A stretch of DNA of 36,715 nt from Deltaproteobacteria bacterium. Its GTDB lineage: Bacteria; Desulfobacterota; Syntrophia; Syntrophales; Smithellaceae. The stretch spans positions 1-36,715 of the forward strand of contig JAKLDS010000021.1 of NCBI GenBank assembly GCA_022703375.1, in the 5' to 3' direction. Positions 7,350-27,005 of this stretch are shown here, piece by piece. The notes beneath the pieces are model-generated. The model saw only the letters and a list, made by a program, of their open reading frames with translations, made no database searches and was not told the DNA's origin. Numbering within the stretch: the first letter of the stretch is position 1; every line of letters begins with the position of its first letter. Made by a program: the position numbers and the translations under genes.

Positions 7350-10300
7350 TTAATTGCGTTGTCCGAAAATATCCCGGCATTTCCGGCGCGCCAGCTCCAG
7401 AGCCTCGATCAGATGCCGCCGCAGGTCTTTGATATCCGGTATCGTCCAGTCCACCAGACCGGTGGCCAGCGCGTCGTTTTTCGCTTTGGCTTTTTCCAGA
7501 TATTTCGAATAGAAGCCATCCTTCATTTCCGCCGCTTTTTGCGTTTCTCCGGCGGCGATAAGCTGATTATATTTGGCGCCGTTTAAAAGATCAAAAGCCG
7601 CGGTGACGCCGATAACCGCCATAATTGCCGATTCCAGCGCGATATAGACAATGCCCGGCCGCAGGAATTTATTGAAGGCCTGAATGAGACGCCCTCCGTA
7701 ATTCTGATTCAGAACAACCGAAACAACCGGAATTTGTCCCAGAATGTTGGCATCGAGCGATTCGGCGCCGATGGCCTGAATGCGGTAACGCTCCTGCCGC
7801 GAGCCCGGCACAAAACCGGATGAATTGGAGAGCATGAATAACGGAATATTATGTTCATTTAAAAATTGTGTGAATACGCGGAATTTTTCGGTGCCCGGCG
7901 CATCCGCTCCCCCTCCCTTGTACAGCGGCTGGTCGGCGATGATGCCCACCGTCTGCCCGCCTAGAGTGGCCAGACCCGTAACCAGACTGGGCCCCGCCAG
8001 AGGATTGTTCATCTCTTTGTAAAATTCTATGAAGCTGTCGCGGTCAAAAGCCCGGGTAATAACTGAGTCAATGATGTCGTAAGGCTGGGCGGTATCGGCG
8101 GGAATAGCCGGCGCCTGTTCGGGCGGCTGAAAGCATGATTCCTTTTCCTGCGGATAAAGCAGGTTGATGACCCGGGCTGCCAGATCAAAGGCTTCGGCAA
8201 AGGAAGAAACCATGAATGTTGAATTCTTCTTCGCGAAGGCTAAAGCTGTGGGCGACATGCCTTCGTCCCGGACGAAAATTATCGCATCCGCGCCGTTGTT
8301 GATTTCGAAACATTTCAAACCATCGCCGTAGGTGATAATGTGGATGCGCGCCCCTTCCTTGTGCTGCAGCGCGGCCATAAAATCCAGCCAGTCGCGCATG
8401 TTGATGTTTTCATGGTAATTGGGACGTTCCTGCCATTTTTTGCCGAAAATGATTATCTGGTTCGCCGCCGTGCGGTGGGCTATTTTCAGCAGTTCCCGGG
8501 CTTTGATAATCGAAGCCGCCGAACGCAGCCCCGAATGGGTGCGCGGTCCCAGAACCAGTGCGCGCCGGCCGGCTATTTTTACGAAGCCGCCAATGAGCGC
8601 CTCCGAGGCGTAATAATCTTTTTTAAAAGTGAGGAATATTCCGTCGTCAACATTGTTGCGGACGATGGCTTCGGTGAAGACCAGCAGGTTCTGGCCGCTG
8701 CGGCTTTCGCTTTGGGTGTGTTTATTGCTGGCAACCCTTCGAATGGCCGGCAATTGTTCGTCCCGATAAAAGAAACGGTGCAGTTCGCGGATATTGCCCA
8801 GCAGATGAATTTTATCCGCGGCAACAATATCCACGATGCCCGTCCATTTGCCCAGAATCTTCGCGCCGCCGATATCATAATTGGAAATGTCTTCTCCCAT
8901 TACCGAGCGGATAACGTTGGAGCCGGTCAGCACCCGGTAGGAGCTTTCCGAATCCAGCAGCAGCTGGATGGTCGCCTGACTGGAGCCGTAAACGTCCAGG
9001 CCCGCCGAAGAACCGACGCCCAGGGCAATCAATCTTGCTGAACGGCGCACATCCTGCCCGGAAGGAACACTGAAATTATATTCCGCGTCGAGTTCACGAA
9101 ACACCTTTTTCAACTCGGGATTTCCGACATTATCAGTATAGAGCCGGAAAGTCTGATAATCAACATTGGCGGAAAGCAGCGCGTTCATCATGAAACCTTC
9201 TCCGCCGCGGTTCAGGGAAACAACACCTTCCATGATATTGGCGCCGGCGCTGTCGTTCCAGACATAGAGCGGCCAGCTTTTATGGTAAGATATGTAAGCC
9301 GCCGCCAGGTATTTCAAGCCTTCCCGATTGCCGGTTGAGCCGCCGGAGATGCGGGAATCCTTCATGTAGAAACATGCTTCCCGCCCTTCGATTTTACCGT
9401 AATAAATTTTTGCGCCTACCGGCCGGTGGGCCGGCTTGCCCTCGGTGGTTGATATTTTTTCCATGCCGTCAATGGCCGCGATTGTTATTTCGCGCGCCGA
9501 GCCGGGATCAAGGCATTCTTCAGCCCAGAATTCGACCGGCCATTTGTCATTATCGAGCAGCTTCTGATTACTGACGTTTATTTTATCTTCATCGTAATAA
9601 GGATTACGGCTGTCGGAATCAAAGAGGATATCGAGCGCGATCGAACGGCCTTTTTGATAAAATAAAACTTTTTTCGCCTCCGGCCTGTCGCTTTGATAAT
9701 ACCGGACATTGAGGTTAAAGATGCCGTGCGCCAGCGTTTTATCATTGAAAAAAGCCAGCATCGAGGAACAAATGTGATGCAGTTTCGCATAATCAAGCAA
9801 AGTATCTTCATTCAGTCTGAGATTCCAGGAAGCGGGACAGTCGGTTATTATTTCAATCCAGTTTTGCTTTCCCTTCTGCACGTGCTGATAAGCGGCTACT
9901 ATGGCTGCCGCCTGCAGGCAGGAATTCTCCATCTGCGCCAGATTTTCTTCCGAGGCAGAGTCAACATCGGCAAAGGCAAAGGCCGCGTAGCTATGATTGC
10001 CGTGGTCTTTTCCGGCCAGACGGTAAACACAAAAATCATCCGCCGGAGAAAAAAGGCGTTGTATCTGAAATCGTTTCTCCAGAAAGGCCAATCTGGTTTT
10101 TAAAGCATCGGCCAACTTCCCTGACAGGTTGTCCGGCAGCAGAGTTTTTTCGGGATGTTCGACGGCCTTCCGGCATTGCCGCAGCAGCAAGCGGGTAGCG
10201 GATAATTTTTGTGCGGGCAGGGACCTGCCGTTCAACTCATCATCGCTCATTTCATATAAATGAATCGAACGGTCGGGAAAATGTTCCAGAATTACTTTTT

Positions 10301-13229
10301 TAATATAGCGCGAAAGGGAATCATCCAGCTCCGATTGTTCCTGATCGAACAGCCTGGCCAGCGTGTTTAAGTTTTCTTTGGAGCTACCCAGATCGACATT
10401 CATGTGCACCAGCGCCTTGATGATTTCCGGATGATCGAGGCATATTTCATAAGAGCGCTTTAAAAGCATGAAAGCCAGTTGCAACTGCATAGCATGCATT
10501 TCCGAGCGCTGGCTGCCGATGTCGGCGATGCCGTAGGAACCAAGCAAGGGGCTGATCACATTATTGAAATAGCGCGACATTTCCAGCTGGGGATTGTGCC
10601 ACTGAGTGATGAAATGGTTCAGTTCTTCCACAAGCGACAGGCCGTTTGAGTAAACAACAGCCGAAAATAATTTCTTGATGCCGATATATTGCAGAATAAT
10701 TTCGTTGATTTTTTCCGCCGTGTCCCTTTTGGTGTGTTTTGACCAGTCTGCAGTCGCAATTCCGGCGAGCGCCTTTTCCAGTTTTTCTATCATGGCCGGT
10801 TGTTCGATAAAGCCCTGAATTACCGCGGCGAGCAGCTCCATCAGGACTTTGATATGTTTTTCCGAATCAGCGGCGATTATCTCGGGAAAATTCGGCGCCA
10901 TCAGAATTTCCAGCGTGCTACCGGAAACCGGATAGGATATTTCAGCAGTGCCGGCGTTGGTTTCCCTGGAGGATTTTTCTTCAGCGCTGAATTCTCTTTC
11001 AATGATAACCAGTTTTTCTCCTTCCTGGAAACTTTTTGTCGCCGGATGTCCGGCGGAAGGCTTGACGTTGTGCAGCGCCGAAGCGTCTCCGTTCATCACG
11101 ATGTAATTGATTGTTCCGTCAATCGGCGAATGGATGGTTGTCTCCATCTTCATGGAAGAGAGAATTATCAGTGGTTCGCCCGTCCGCACTTTTGCTCCGG
11201 GCTTTAAATCATTGCGGCAGAACGCCACAAAGTTCCCCTGAAACGGCGAATAGACAATTCCGGTATCATCATCTTCCGCAATTCCTTCCGGCGCGACGTG
11301 CAAGCGGTGATAATTAATTTTGCCGCTGTCATCTTTCATCCGGATAATAATATAGTTGGCCTGGCGGTCTATCCGGATACGGTAGGAGCTGTTGCCGAAG
11401 ATAAGCTGGATATCGTCAAAGCGGTCGTTGAATGTATTGAGAAAGGCTTTACCGTTATAGATGCCATTGACATAAATATGAAAAGCATTCAAGGTTGTCT
11501 GGATATATTCAAGACAATATTTTTGCCTGTCGTACTCGATTATGTAACGGCCGGGAACTTTCAGCACGCGGGTGTTGATAATCCCTTCAATGTGAGCAAT
11601 GATTAATGATTCAGTGACCGACTGATAGAGCAGTTTGACATGTTCCGCGAGACCTCCGAAGTGAATGTGCCGGGCGCTGCGGTGATCGCCTACAACCCTG
11701 CCGGCCTGCCCGCTATCCTGAAAATTCAAATCGGGGTTATTCAGAAGAAGATTGTTGGAGTAATCGCCTTTGATAAATTCGGGGTGCCGCACAATGCGCA
11801 AAAGTTGATTGGCGTTGGTTTTCACGCCGCTGATATAGAGTTCCTGCAGCGCCCGGTCCAGACGAATCAGCGCTTCGCGCCGCGTCGGGCCGTTGGCGAT
11901 TATCTTGCCGATCATGGGATCGTACATCGGCGAGATGTTATCGCCCTTGCTGTAGCCGAAGTCACAGCGAATGCCGTTAAAAGTCGGCAGGTCAATTTCC
12001 TGAATGACGCCCGGTGAAGGCAGATAGTCGTTTTCCGGCTCTTCCGCGTATATCCGGCATTCGATGGAATGATCGTTTTTGGCAATATTTTTGCGTAACA
12101 AATCCAGTCCGATTATTTCCTTTTCCCGGCCGTCATAATAAAGTATCTGCCACTTGGCGAGATCAATGCCCAGAGACTGGTCGGTTACGGCGTATTCCAC
12201 CTGCAAGCGAGTGTTTACCTCCATGAAACCGAATTTCCCGGTATCTCCGTCAATCAGAAATTCCACCGTTCCTGCTCCGCCGTTCCGGCTGTAGCCCGAA
12301 ACCTTGGCTATTTTTTCGGCGGCAGCCAGCATTTCCGTTGCCAGCTTTTCTTCCAAAAAAGAATGGCCGCTTTCTTCGATAATTTTCTGGTTGCGGCGCT
12401 GCACGGCGCATTTCCGGATGCCGATGGCCCGGCCGTTGAAAATCTGCACTTCAATGTGCGTCGGTTTGGTCAGATATTTTTCGATGTAAAATGACGTGTC
12501 GCCGTAAAGTTCGCGGCCGATGCGGCAGCAGGAATCAACGGCCCGGTCCAGCTCATTTTCATGGAAAACGGTGTACAATCCCTTGCCGCCGCCGCCGGAG
12601 GCCAGTTTTATCATAACCGGATAGCCGATGCGTGACGCTTCCTTTCTGGCCAGATTTTTACTGCGGTCGGAGAGAACCTGCGAACTTTCGAACAACGGAA
12701 TATTATGAGCAGCAGCCAGCGCGCGGGCATTGAGCTTGTTGCCCACCTGTTTCATGGTTTTGTAATCGGGCCCCATGAACAGAATTTCATGTCCGCTGCG
12801 CCGGGAAATCGCTCCCAATCCCTGCACAAACTCGGAACTTTCCGAGAGAAAACCATAACCCGGATAAATGGCGTTGGCGCCGACAAGCTGTGCGGCGGCA
12901 ATAATTACCGGAATACTGGAATAATTATGACGATCGCCGATAAAAACAATTTCGTCGGCGAATTCATACCATGATTGTTCTCTGTCCACGTCGGTGACAA
13001 CGGCCACGGAAGGAATGCCTTCTTCATGCAGCGCCAGAAAAAAGCGTTTGGCGATTTCCGCGCGGTTAGCAACCAGCACTTTTTGCAGCAGATGAGGCCT
13101 TTTGCGGGAGACGGACTGCTGATCTCCTGAGCGGCGGCCGAAAATATTCGTATTTAATTCCAGCAGGGAGTCGAGAGCTTTGTTTAATTCTTTTTCCAGG
13201 GTATTGACGTTAGTCATTTTGCCATCCAT
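7350..13229 (-). CDS. Giant single-chain biotin-dependent acyl-CoA (acetyl-CoA-type) carboxylase
   Basis: One 1959-residue chain carries every activity of an acyl-CoA carboxylase. The biotin carboxylase begins at about 51 (VLVANRAEIA), with the ATP-grasp glycine loop GGGGK at 212-216 and the MEVNTRLQVEYAVT active-site motif. A linker and BCCP domain follow, with the biotinyl Lys694 in SSMKMET. About 500 residues of helical central region come next. The carboxyltransferase N-half starts near 1250 (D1291 SRISGGSTG) and the C-half runs about 1700-1940 (LATLGGQTVG; SGFVPGSRQER). It would convert acetyl-CoA or another acyl-CoA to the carboxylated product using ATP and bicarbonate. The domain order matches eukaryotic ACC rather than bacterial AccABCD, but the CT C-half motifs look more propionyl-CoA-carboxylase-like, so the substrate is uncertain. 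The start is uncertain: no clear ribosome site precedes Met1, and Met5 (13217) is an alternative. It is probably monocistronic. Confidence 0.93.
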   Translation of the reverse strand: MDGKMTNVNTLEKELNKALDSLLELNTNIFGRRSGDQQSVSRKRPHLLQKVLVANRAEIAKRFFLALHEEGIPSVAVVTDVDREQSWYEFADEIVFIGDRHNYSSIPVIIAAAQLVGANAIYPGYGFLSESSEFVQGLGAISRRSGHEILFMGPDYKTMKQVGNKLNARALAAAHNIPLFESSQVLSDRSKNLARKEASRIGYPVMIKLASGGGGKGLYTVFHENELDRAVDSCCRIGRELYGDTSFYIEKYLTKPTHIEVQIFNGRAIGIRKCAVQRRNQKIIEESGHSFLEEKLATEMLAAAEKIAKVSGYSRNGGAGTVEFLIDGDTGKFGFMEVNTRLQVEYAVTDQSLGIDLAKWQILYYDGREKEIIGLDLLRKNIAKNDHSIECRIYAEEPENDYLPSPGVIQEIDLPTFNGIRCDFGYSKGDNISPMYDPMIGKIIANGPTRREALIRLDRALQELYISGVKTNANQLLRIVRHPEFIKGDYSNNLLLNNPDLNFQDSGQAGRVVGDHRSARHIHFGGLAEHVKLLYQSVTESLIIAHIEGIINTRVLKVPGRYIIEYDRQKYCLEYIQTTLNAFHIYVNGIYNGKAFLNTFNDRFDDIQLIFGNSSYRIRIDRQANYIIIRMKDDSGKINYHRLHVAPEGIAEDDDTGIVYSPFQGNFVAFCRNDLKPGAKVRTGEPLIILSSMKMETTIHSPIDGTINYIVMNGDASALHNVKPSAGHPATKSFQEGEKLVIIEREFSAEEKSSRETNAGTAEISYPVSGSTLEILMAPNFPEIIAADSEKHIKVLMELLAAVIQGFIEQPAMIEKLEKALAGIATADWSKHTKRDTAEKINEIILQYIGIKKLFSAVVYSNGLSLVEELNHFITQWHNPQLEMSRYFNNVISPLLGSYGIADIGSQRSEMHAMQLQLAFMLLKRSYEICLDHPEIIKALVHMNVDLGSSKENLNTLARLFDQEQSELDDSLSRYIKKVILEHFPDRSIHLYEMSDDELNGRSLPAQKLSATRLLLRQCRKAVEHPEKTLLPDNLSGKLADALKTRLAFLEKRFQIQRLFSPADDFCVYRLAGKDHGNHSYAAFAFADVDSASEENLAQMENSCLQAAAIVAAYQHVQKGKQNWIEIITDCPASWNLRLNEDTLLDYAKLHHICSSMLAFFNDKTLAHGIFNLNVRYYQSDRPEAKKVLFYQKGRSIALDILFDSDSRNPYYDEDKINVSNQKLLDNDKWPVEFWAEECLDPGSAREITIAAIDGMEKISTTEGKPAHRPVGAKIYYGKIEGREACFYMKDSRISGGSTGNREGLKYLAAAYISYHKSWPLYVWNDSAGANIMEGVVSLNRGGEGFMMNALLSANVDYQTFRLYTDNVGNPELKKVFRELDAEYNFSVPSGQDVRRSARLIALGVGSSAGLDVYGSSQATIQLLLDSESSYRVLTGSNVIRSVMGEDISNYDIGGAKILGKWTGIVDIVAADKIHLLGNIRELHRFFYRDEQLPAIRRVASNKHTQSESRSGQNLLVFTEAIVRNNVDDGIFLTFKKDYYASEALIGGFVKIAGRRALVLGPRTHSGLRSAASIIKARELLKIAHRTAANQIIIFGKKWQERPNYHENINMRDWLDFMAALQHKEGARIHIITYGDGLKCFEINNGADAIIFVRDEGMSPTALAFAKKNSTFMVSSFAEAFDLAARVINLLYPQEKESCFQPPEQAPAIPADTAQPYDIIDSVITRAFDRDSFIEFYKEMNNPLAGPSLVTGLATLGGQTVGIIADQPLYKGGGADAPGTEKFRVFTQFLNEHNIPLFMLSNSSGFVPGSRQERYRIQAIGAESLDANILGQIPVVSVVLNQNYGGRLIQAFNKFLRPGIVYIALESAIMAVIGVTAAFDLLNGAKYNQLIAAGETQKAAEMKDGFYSKYLEKAKAKNDALATGLVDWTIPDIKDLRRHLIEALELARRKCRDIFGQRN

Positions 13230-22617: not shown

Positions 22618-23628
22618 TCATTGTTGCGGAGAAACAATGCCCGCAGCAGAGTGTTTTTTGCCGGTCAGTAAACCGGTAAAATAGCTGTCCAGCTCCTTCT
22701 GCAGGCTATCCTTGTTCGGCAACTGCCCCAATTTCTGGCGGAAACTGCATGCGCCATCCAGACCCTTTGTGTACCAGATGAGGTGTTTGCGGAAGTTTCT
22801 TTCGGCCGTTCTGAGACCGCAGTATTCGGTGTCCATCTCCCAGTGTTTCTTAATTATTTCATACCTTTGCGTTATAGTGGGCAGAAAATCGGCAGGCCTG
22901 CCGTTCAATAATTGATTTATTCCCGCAAAAAGCCACGGATTGCCCAGCGCCCCTCTGCCTATCATCACGGCATCACAGGCCGTCTGGCTAATCATGGCCA
23001 GAGCATCCTGCGGCAGGTGGATATCGCCATTGCCGATAACCGGAATCTTTACGGCATTCTTAACCGCGGCGATAATTCTCCAGTCGGCTTTTCCGCTATA
23101 GCCCTGATCGGCAGTGCGGGCATGGACGGCGATGGCGGCGACGCCGGATTCCTCCGCGATGCGTGCCACTTCCACGGCATTGATGGATTTGCCACTCCAG
23201 CCCGAACGAATTTTTACGGTGATGGGAAGGGCAACCGCCTTTTTAACGGCGCTGATAATATCACAAATCAACCGCGGATCTTTGAGCAGCACTGCTCCCG
23301 CCCCGGTGCGAACAACTTTTTTTACCGGGCAGCCCATATTAATATCAATCAAATCAGCGCCCATATCCTGCGCCATCCTGGCTGCTTCAGCCATTACGGC
23401 CGGGTCGGCGCCGAAAATCTGCATGCCCAGGGGTCTATCAGCTTCACCCGTTTTCAGATATTCCAGTGTTTTTTGCGTCTGCCGGACAAGGCCGTTGGCG
23501 CTGATCATTTCAGTGTAAGCCAGCGCGCATCCGCAAGAACGTGCAATCAGCCGAAAAGGCAGGTTGGAAATGCCCGCCAGCGGTGCGAGCAGAGCCTTGT
23601 TTTGCAATTTTTTAATGATATCGGACAT
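22618..23628 (-). CDS. dusB: tRNA-dihydrouridine synthase, DusB type
   Basis: An FMN-dependent enzyme that reduces uridines in the tRNA D-loop. It has a TIM-barrel with LAPLAGISNLPFR at the N terminus, the catalytic Cys100 in INMGCPVKKV, and the phosphate-binding GNGDI and MIGRGALGNPW motifs; a helical tRNA-binding domain lies at the C terminus (about 240-320). The length, 336, matches the family. It starts 12 bases after the stop of the CNNM-GlmU fusion gene with no obvious ribosome site of its own, so translation is probably coupled. Confidence 0.95.
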   Translation of the reverse strand: MSDIIKKLQNKALLAPLAGISNLPFRLIARSCGCALAYTEMISANGLVRQTQKTLEYLKTGEADRPLGMQIFGADPAVMAEAARMAQDMGADLIDINMGCPVKKVVRTGAGAVLLKDPRLICDIISAVKKAVALPITVKIRSGWSGKSINAVEVARIAEESGVAAIAVHARTADQGYSGKADWRIIAAVKNAVKIPVIGNGDIHLPQDALAMISQTACDAVMIGRGALGNPWLFAGINQLLNGRPADFLPTITQRYEIIKKHWEMDTEYCGLRTAERNFRKHLIWYTKGLDGACSFRQKLGQLPNKDSLQKELDSYFTGLLTGKKHSAAGIVSPQQ

Positions 23629-23640
23629 AGGTGGACTTTT

Positions 23641-25701
23641 TCAGGTAGCCGCCAGATAAGCGCCGGCCTGCTGCAATTGCTCAACGGTATTTATTCCCAT
23701 GACCTCCAGATAATCCGGCGCTATATGAGCTCTGACAATTTGTCCCTCGCGGCAGGCTATCTCGACAATATCCGTCAAATAGTACTCCTGTTGACTATTG
23801 TTGTTTTTCACTTTGCCCAGAGCGGCAAAAAGAAAAGGCGTAGCGACGCAGTAAATTCCGGTGTTGATTTCCCCTATTTGTTTTTCTTGTTCGGTTGCAT
23901 CGCGCTCTTCTACTATTTTGCAGATGTTGCCATTGCCGTCTTTCACAACCCTGCCGTAACCTTTAACCTCGGCCGGAAAGGTGGTAAGCACAGTCAGGCA
24001 CGCCCGGAAACGGATATGCTCCGCCACCAGAGCCTTGATGGTTTCCACCTGCAGGAGCGGGACATCGCCGCAAAGAATAACCGTCAATCCCGGATAACCG
24101 GCCAGGGCCTCCCTGGCCTGCATTACGGCATGGCCGGTGCCCAGTTGCGGTTTCTGTTCGGCAAAAATCAAATCACCATCGGCAAAGATTTCTCTGATCT
24201 TTTGCGCCTGATGGCCGATAATCACGACAATTTTTTCCGCTCCGGCATGCCTTGCTGCCGCCACGGAGTAGTAAAGCAGCGGCTTTCCCGCCAGTTCATG
24301 AAGAACTTTTGCCAGATTCGATTTCATGCGGGTGCCGCGGCCTGCCGCCAGAATTACCGCGGAGAATTTATTTTCTTTCACTTTTTTTGCCAGTTCCCTT
24401 TCCTGTTTCTTCAGTAATTCTTCCCGTTCCGGCAGCTCTGGTAACGCCACCAGAATTTCTCTGATGGATTTATGATCGGCATTTTCAATGATGAAGGTCA
24501 CCCCTTTATATGTATGGCTTTCTTTCCTTTGGGGAATTCTGCCCAGAGTTTGCATCAGGTAACCGCCCAGCGTTTCATAATTGCCGGATGGTATTTTGAC
24601 ACCAAGGAGTTCGCTTAAATCATCAATGTTGATGCGGCCGTTTACCATAAATCTGCCGGGAGCTATTTTTTTATAAAGTTTTTCACCCGTCGTATATTCG
24701 TCATCTATGCTGCCGATTATTTCCTCTCCGATATCCTCGCTGGTGACAATACCGACCGCGCCGCCGTACTCATCCACAACTATGGCCATATGCTCGCGCC
24801 TCTTTTGCATATCCATCAGCAGTTCGCTGGCTTTTTTTGTTTCCGGCACATAGAAAATTTCGTTTTGCAGGCAGGATGCGATGGTCTGGGCCACCGGAGG
24901 AGATGTTAGTTTTTCCCTGGCGCTGTGTAAAACAGCCAGCAAATCAAAGTAATGCAAAATACCTACAATATTGAAAATCTGTCCCTGATAAACAGGTATG
25001 CGCAAATATTTCTTGCCGGCGACTATTCTGGCCGCCTCTTCAATATCGGTGGTAATGGGCAAAGCAGTCATAGCCGAAAGAGGAATCATTATTTTGTCAA
25101 CGGTTACTTCCGAAAAATCAAAAACGCGGCTGACCATTTCCCTTTCCGTTTTCAAAATATCGCTGCCCTGGGTATTCTTGCGTAAAATGAATTTCAGACC
25201 CTCCTTTGTTATATAAGAGGGATTTTTAATATTTTCGCCCGTTGAAAAACGAACAGTTTCCCGGGAGACCAGGGCGATGATGTAAGCCACCGGATAAAAT
25301 AACACGGAAGAGACACGGATGAAAAATGCTGTCCGCATGGCCATGGCTTCCGCATGATGCTGAAAAACAGTACGGGCGATAATCATGAAAAAGAGGGTAG
25401 GCAGCATTATCAGCATTGATAATTGGGCGCCCTGTTTTGTGCCGAAAGCATCTATCAGAAGGCCGGCGGTTAAAGTGGAACTGACAATAATCGAAAGATT
25501 GGTGCCGATAATTGTAGTTGAAATAAACCACTCCGGCTTTTCCATAAGTTTCAGGGCCTGTCGGGCGGAAAAAGAGCCACGGCGGGCGAAGAACCTTATT
25601 TTATTGATATCCGAAGAAATCAAAGCTATTTCACCGCCGGAATAGAATGCTTCCAGGACGAGGCAGAAAAATATTACAGCGATGATTAAATAAATACTCA
25701 T
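23641..25701 (-). CDS. CNNM/CorC transporter-like protein fused to a GlmU-type uridylyltransferase domain
   Basis: Residues 1-440 are a complete CNNM/HlyC-CorC protein: DUF21 membrane domain (about 1-145), a CBS pair (about 200-325, with RIPVYQG and [17 protein letters not shown]) and a CorC_HlyC domain (about 345-420). Such proteins act in Mg2+/divalent ion transport or sensing. Residues 446-686 are a nucleotidyltransferase like the GlmU N-domain ([25 protein letters not shown]), which makes UDP-GlcNAc from GlcNAc-1-phosphate; the GlmU acetyltransferase domain is absent. At the junction is a seven-A tract followed by GTGA (24378-24388). With six A the first part would stop at residue 440, overlapping a GTG start for a separate 246-residue transferase. 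The fusion is therefore real as sequenced, but one base decides it. The start overlaps the upstream paralog stop (ATGA). Confidence 0.9.
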
Positions 25702-27005
25702 TGTTCCTCTGCTTCCGTTACCGTCTTTTCCACTCTGATTTTCAGGATCCGCGCTTTTCCCACGCTTTCGACTATAAATCTGTATCCGTCAGAGCTTACG
25801 GATTCTCCCCGGGCGGGAAGTTTTCCGAACAGGTGCAGCACAAAGCCGCCGACCGTGTCAAATTCAGGCTGGGTGATATCGCCGTGAATTAAAGCATTGA
25901 ACTGTTCCATGGACATTTTTCCGGGCACTACCATGGTTTTTTCATCTATCAGTTCACAGCCATCCTGCAGATGAACGCAATCGGCGATTTCTTCTTCGAA
26001 CAAATGTTCCATGATGTCTTCGAGAGAAACAAGGCCGGAAACGCCGCCGTATTCATCAACAACTATAGCTATTTGCATACGGTTTTCCCGGAAATCGTGC
26101 AACAGCCCGTTGATGGTTTTATCCTCGGGAACAAAGTAAGGTCTTTTGAGCAGCGCGGCGATGCTTCTGATTTCAGTTTCCTGCAGGGCGGCATGGAGTA
26201 AATCACGGGCATAAATAATTCCTATGATATCGTCGCGGTCGCCTTCATAAACCGGCACCCGTTCATGCCGTTCCCTGACAACTGCGGCGATAACTTCCGT
26301 CATTGGCAGATGCGCAGGAAGGCAGAACATGTCTACGCGGGGCACCATGATATCGGTAACCGGTTTATCGCCCAGTGCGAAAATTCTGTTAATCAGTTCT
26401 TTCTGCGCTTCTTCGACAACACCTTCACGGCTGCCGACATCAATGAGCGTTTTAAACTCTTCTTCCATTACGGGATCAGCGGCGCTCCGGCTGCTGCCGT
26501 GGACATAACGCCTTAAGATAAAATCAGAAACTTTTTCCAGGCTGATAACTATGGGATACACCAGACGGGAAAAGATTGCCAGCAGCGGAGAAACGGCTGA
26601 AGATATCGGCATCGGGTAGGTTACGCCAAAAGTTTTGGGAACAGCCTCGCCGGTGATAAGTACCAGGCTGCTGGTAAAAGCAATGGCAACCCACTCACCG
26701 TTCATTCCCAGCAAACCGATAAACAAGGACGCCGCGACAACCGACAGGCCGATATTAACCGCATCATTGCCGACAACAATGGTAATTAAAAGACGGCGCG
26801 GCTTGGCAAGCAGTTCCGAAACAAGACGTAAAAACGGATAGCGGTCCATTTTCATCTTATGGCGGTGCAGTTCGGTGAGTGAAAACAAAGCGGCTTCGGA
26901 AGAGGAAAAGAATCCCGAAAGTAAAAGTAATATTAAAATTATGGTTATTTGAAATGTTAAATCCAAAGCAAATATGTTCCTGAATACTTTATTTGTCTTT
27001 GGCAA
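25698..27005 (-). CDS. CNNM/HlyC-CorC family membrane protein
   Basis: An inner-membrane protein of the group linked to Mg2+/Co2+ efflux or ion homeostasis. A DUF21 domain with about four membrane segments (about 17-150) carries the family signature SGFFSSSEAALFSL. A CBS pair follows (about 205-325; RVPVYEGDRDDIIGIIYARDL; VVDEYGGVSGLVSLEDI), then the C-terminal CorC_HlyC domain (about 345-425). It is a paralog of the downstream fused protein and overlaps it by four bases (ATGA), so they are co-translated. The frame opens with TTG at 27005 without a good ribosome site; TTG at 26966, preceded by CAGGAA, is an alternative that removes a polar leader. The start is therefore uncertain. Confidence 0.92.
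   Translation of the reverse strand: MPKTNKVFRNIFALDLTFQITIILILLLLSGFFSSSEAALFSLTELHRHKMKMDRYPFLRLVSELLAKPRRLLITIVVGNDAVNIGLSVVAASLFIGLLGMNGEWVAIAFTSSLVLITGEAVPKTFGVTYPMPISSAVSPLLAIFSRLVYPIVISLEKVSDFILRRYVHGSSRSAADPVMEEEFKTLIDVGSREGVVEEAQKELINRIFALGDKPVTDIMVPRVDMFCLPAHLPMTEVIAAVVRERHERVPVYEGDRDDIIGIIYARDLLHAALQETEIRSIAALLKRPYFVPEDKTINGLLHDFRENRMQIAIVVDEYGGVSGLVSLEDIMEHLFEEEIADCVHLQDGCELIDEKTMVVPGKMSMEQFNALIHGDITQPEFDTVGGFVLHLFGKLPARGESVSSDGYRFIVESVGKARILKIRVEKTVTEAEEQ

Follow-up and report, generated by a model that had tools for sequence, protein, structure and literature searches.

On the minus strand of the window (by which we mean the whole stretch of 36,715 nucleotides analysed, from contig JAKLDS010000021.1), a CNNM-type membrane protein that resembles magnesium transporters, here called CNNM-B, and GlmU-N, a GlmU-type uridylyltransferase domain for the synthesis of a cell-wall building block, are encoded by one uninterrupted open reading frame (ORF). 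We consider this ORF to be probably a genuine, lineage-specific gene fusion that arose through the loss of the CNNM-B stop codon. The fusion was seen in one genome only; it is most likely recent and confined to one lineage and, as far as can be seen, private to this genome among the genomes compared. CNNM and GlmU-N form a novel pairing of domains, whose interest is modest pending confirmation, and among the papers searched none mentions CNNM and GlmU together.

The reading frame and its domains

The fused ORF starts with ATG and has no internal stop across its 686 codons (Table 1). The CNNM, CBS and CorC domains span residues 1 to about 425 and the GlmU-type uridylyltransferase residues 444-683; precisely, Pfam assigned CNNM to residues 9-181, two CBS domains, CorC_HlyC to 345-420 and NTP_transferase to 448-661. 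The preliminary description had a CNNM protein reading in frame into a sugar-nucleotide transferase domain, and both the open frame and the Pfam order agree with this. In the predicted structure a helix at residues 425-442 bridges the junction and the GlmU-N fold is of high confidence; the model of the whole fused protein is weak (pTM 0.43, with the CBS region below 50) and its overall domain arrangement is unreliable.

Table 1. Coordinates of the fused ORF, of its parts and of the related genes. Positions are those of the window unless a locus is given.
Feature	Position	Strand	Basis or remark
Fused CNNM-B + GlmU-type uridylyltransferase ORF	23641-25701	minus	686 aa
CNNM-B part (DUF21/CNNM TM domain, CBS pair, CorC_HlyC), aa 1 to ~440	24382-25701	minus	Pfam
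GlmU-N domain (aa ~441-686), catalytic motifs intact, without LbH	23641-24381	minus	Pfam, NCBIfam, alignments
Codon 436 GAA, at the place of the CNNM stop in G017 (TAA) and G008 (TAG remnant)	24394-24396	minus	Junction comparison
A7 tract, in-frame AAA AAA (Lys-Lys)	24382-24388	minus	Sequence
GTG codon 441, GlmU-N start position in relatives	24379-24381	minus	Junction comparison
CNNM-A, upstream paralogue of CNNM-B, ATGA overlap with CNNM-B start	25698-27005	minus	ORF, Pfam
dusB (tRNA dihydrouridine synthase), downstream of fused ORF	22618-23628	minus	Pfam, NCBIfam
GlmU-C-like protein, 433 aa	L061:1393-2694 (G000:C88)		Best matches are the GlmU acetyltransferase half
glmM	L061:2691-3698 (G000:C88)		Start overlapped by four bases by the GlmU-C-like protein

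The ATGA overlap between CNNM-A and CNNM-B is present in the sequence as it had been described. Elsewhere in the window, a 1959-aa ORF lies on the minus strand at 7350-13229.

The structural relatives of CNNM-B in the PDB are MtCorB (7m1t/7m1u), TpCorB (7cff/7cfg) and 4hg0. CNNM-B has the same length as MtCorB and TpCorB and the same order of DUF21, CBS pair and CorC_HlyC, but three residues of the TM3 pi-helix, Glu, Pro and Lys, are missing from it and it bears an added C-terminal enzyme domain. In the alignments, IIART replaces GEIxPK in CNNM-B, whereas CNNM-A keeps the GE-x-x-PK motif, as GEAVPK. These positions vary little or not at all, and CorB proteins mutated there transport less Mg2+ (PMC8242095). 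Judging from its sequence, CNNM-B probably no longer transports Mg2+ and has kept the CBS/CorC regulatory part; since the motif is lost in CNNM-B and kept in CNNM-A, the former may assist the latter in a regulatory or anchoring role. The protein had been called ion-responsive, which is doubtful for the membrane part, given the lost pi-helix motif; the CBS/CorC parts remain. Among tandem CNNM paralogues, the motif is lost in CNNM-B of the window family and retained in some more distant CNNM-B relatives.

The top NCBIfam match of GlmU-N was GlmU PRK14355 (ORF residues 444-683, model positions 1-242 of 459); against TIGR01173 the domain scored 263 bits, under the family cut-off of 366.85, and the LbH acetyltransferase domain was absent. 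GlmU-N corresponds in sequence, length and pyrophosphorylase motifs to the N-terminal half of GlmU (TIGR01173/PRK14355; PDB 9dqf, 1hm0, 1fwy), and it differs from bifunctional GlmU in being without the LbH half and in being joined N-terminally to CNNM, while it is free-standing in relatives. The motifs GxGTRM...K, QLGTGHA, GDVPL and EINTGIY and the final GIN, the known catalytic motifs of GlmU, were all intact in the alignments (eight relatives, read through their stop codon, are rows of the final full-length alignment). The domain was not accelerated, with 6 unique changes in the window versus 5 in the closest relative (G005); synonymous sites were saturated in the dN/dS comparison.

The junction and the origin of the fusion

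Seven A at 24388-24382, then GTG at 24381-24379 and A at 24378, form the junction exactly as previously placed, and in the zero frame it is read GCA AAA AAA GTG. With six A, as had also been stated, the frame hits TGA immediately, and this stop shares bases with the GTG in GTGA; in the -1 frame the sequence gives SERK and then TAA. Both alternative frames past A7 are in fact closed within five codons, and an AGGGA element is located a few bases upstream of the tract.

The first set of relatives consisted of 59 genomes, all with matches, and the source genus was represented in the comparison by this genome alone. For 25 of the 59, each with both genes on one stretch, the junction was examined nucleotide by nucleotide. 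CNNM-B and GlmU-N were separate genes in all 25, with a CNNM-B stop codon (TAA, TAG or TGA) followed by the GlmU-N start, the gap being usually within about 100 bases. The preliminary description would count two separate overlapping genes in all close relatives as evidence against it; this was borne out as regards the separation and not as regards the overlap, the genes being mostly adjacent and non-overlapping. No second uninterrupted CNNM-GlmU frame was present among the matches listed for 155 class genomes and for 395 genomes sampled from the phylum. On these sequences, the two-gene state of the relatives rules out that a fusion or a switch is conserved, but it does not exclude a fusion in the source genome itself. 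Large "open frame" values made G022 and G049 candidates for more fusions, which we rejected on the basis of the stops present in the DNA between the genes. At two loci (L041 in G033 and L032 in G022), 0.9-2.5 kb of other sequence separates CNNM-B from GlmU-N, hence adjacency is not strict.

Near relatives have the DNA flanking the junction in common with the window, and close relatives stop CNNM-B by TAA, TAG or TGA directly behind "KKQER" or close to that position, where the window has GAA. The closest relative, G005, reads AAACAGGAAGGG-TGA and the window AAACAGGAAAGG-GAA, the stop position being now sense codon 436; G017 has AAAC(A/T)GGAAAGG and then TAA, and in G008 (TAG) and G013 (TAA) the junction sequence is recognisable, with the CNNM stop in use slightly upstream. 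Both the length of the CNNM-B tail and the position of its stop differ between relatives, therefore the tail seems free to change. Importantly for the origin of the fusion, the two genes are already in the same frame in G017, G020, G045, G041 and some others, so that one stop-codon change would suffice for a fusion, or nearly so, and an error in A7 is not required. The preliminary description considered the fusion to be decided by one base in the A7 tract; we favour instead the loss of the CNNM stop at codon 436. A real fusion, which was among its options, is the best supported of them in the form of a lineage-specific stop loss, and not as a conserved fusion, the relatives having separate genes.

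In the course of events that we propose, CNNM-A, CNNM-B and GlmU-N would have been adjacent separate genes of an ancestral operon, and the CNNM-B stop position would have become GAA, leaving both genes in one frame. The ribosome would then continue into GlmU-N across a short, charged helix (residues 425-442, approximately), and the product would be a membrane-tethered UDP-GlcNAc pyrophosphorylase whose active domain, carried by the CNNM tail, lies in the cytosol. Initiation at the former GlmU-N start codon, the GTG at 24381, may still supply some free enzyme.

A one-base error of assembly or sequencing, with a true tract of six A, CNNM-B ending at TGA and GlmU-N starting at the overlapping GTG as the second of two coupled genes, appears unlikely. 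Two genes are present in all the relatives examined, the closest relative has a possible GTGA-type stop/start overlap like the six-A arrangement of the window locus, and homopolymers are the usual place for indel errors. However, an error needs an extra event, as the ancestral stop is lost too (codon 436 is GAA either way), and A7 is ordinary in this genome, where 246 runs of at least seven are within ORF interiors in 479 kb. Near ORF 3' ends there was no clear excess of such runs, with 28 of at least seven within 30 nt and 17-24 expected, as estimated from the background density. We found 0 frameshifts in 29 reference-supported genes, a small sample that bounds the error rate loosely; the completeness of the source genome is 95%. 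Considering the in-frame homopolymers and the lack of frameshifts in these genes, the assembly seems to handle homopolymers well.

A further alternative accepts the fusion in the DNA and takes it as incidental, translation of the functional enzyme starting within the frame, at GTG 24381. The Shine-Dalgarno-like pairing ahead of this codon is kept (-5.5 kcal/mol, inside the range of the relatives), hence we dropped the argument that a lost Shine-Dalgarno sequence before this codon would prove the fusion. Because this pairing is not lost, the GTG could still serve as an internal start and a separate GlmU-N is possible; moreover, the enzyme domain is presumably essential. The upstream frame is without a stop, though, so some fusion is made wherever CNNM-B is translated, and we regard a merely incidental fusion as improbable.

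Least credible, and in our judgement very improbable, is the slippage-controlled pair of the preliminary description, in which transcriptional slippage or -1 frameshifting at A AAA AAA would yield, as in dnaX, the fusion together with a short-ended CNNM-B (ending at once, by SERK-TAA in -1 and TGA in +1): stops within five codons in both other frames and the AGGGA element just upstream of the run are in its favour, but the relatives have stop codons and no comparable A-tract at the junction, A7 runs are common in this genome, and seven A are short for transcriptional slippage, for which nine is the usual length. In many genomes, selection against A/T runs typically sets in at nine (PMC1088944). 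A downstream stem-loop was rejected as frameshift stimulator, the RNA being no better folded than its shuffles (z about +0.4). The slippage genes dnaX of Thermus and E. coli likewise have an A-run and nearby stops in both other frames, but the run is of nine in Thermus and of seven here, where the tract is unconserved and without a supporting structure. By analogy, A7 might act as a dnaX-like partition point between membrane-tethered and free forms of the only GlmU-type UDP-GlcNAc pyrophosphorylase of the cell, with the CBS/CorC sensor in control, which we hold to be just as improbable.

GlmU in the source genome and significance of the fusion

No full-length GlmU above the family cut-off was found in the source genome or in 56 relatives (57 genomes), and the GlmU-N of the window is the only strong GlmU uridylyltransferase match in its genome. 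The GlmU-C-like protein of this genome (Table 1) has a homologue beside glmM in 6 of 10 relatives, the other four having no glmM match within the stretch taken. Since a full-length GlmU was not found and a GlmU-C-like protein is beside glmM, GlmU looks split in the order Syntrophales, the CNNM operon carrying the uridylyltransferase and an acetyltransferase-like protein lying next to glmM. The window domain is likely the only UDP-GlcNAc pyrophosphorylase of the cell; accessory uridyltransferases, such as GlmR, are known elsewhere (PMC10128056).

The fusion is interesting mainly because it is in a genome that has no full-length GlmU and no second strong match to GlmU-N. Should the fused protein be produced, UDP-GlcNAc synthesis would have its final step tethered to the membrane by way of a CNNM-type CBS/CorC protein, on whose tail the enzyme sits. 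As a hint of interaction, the fusion makes a functional link between CNNM and GlmU plausible, though it does so in a single genome. The finding also draws notice to the widespread linkage of a CNNM pair with a free-standing GlmU uridylyltransferase in the order Syntrophales, and it points to a GlmU activity apparently split over two operons.
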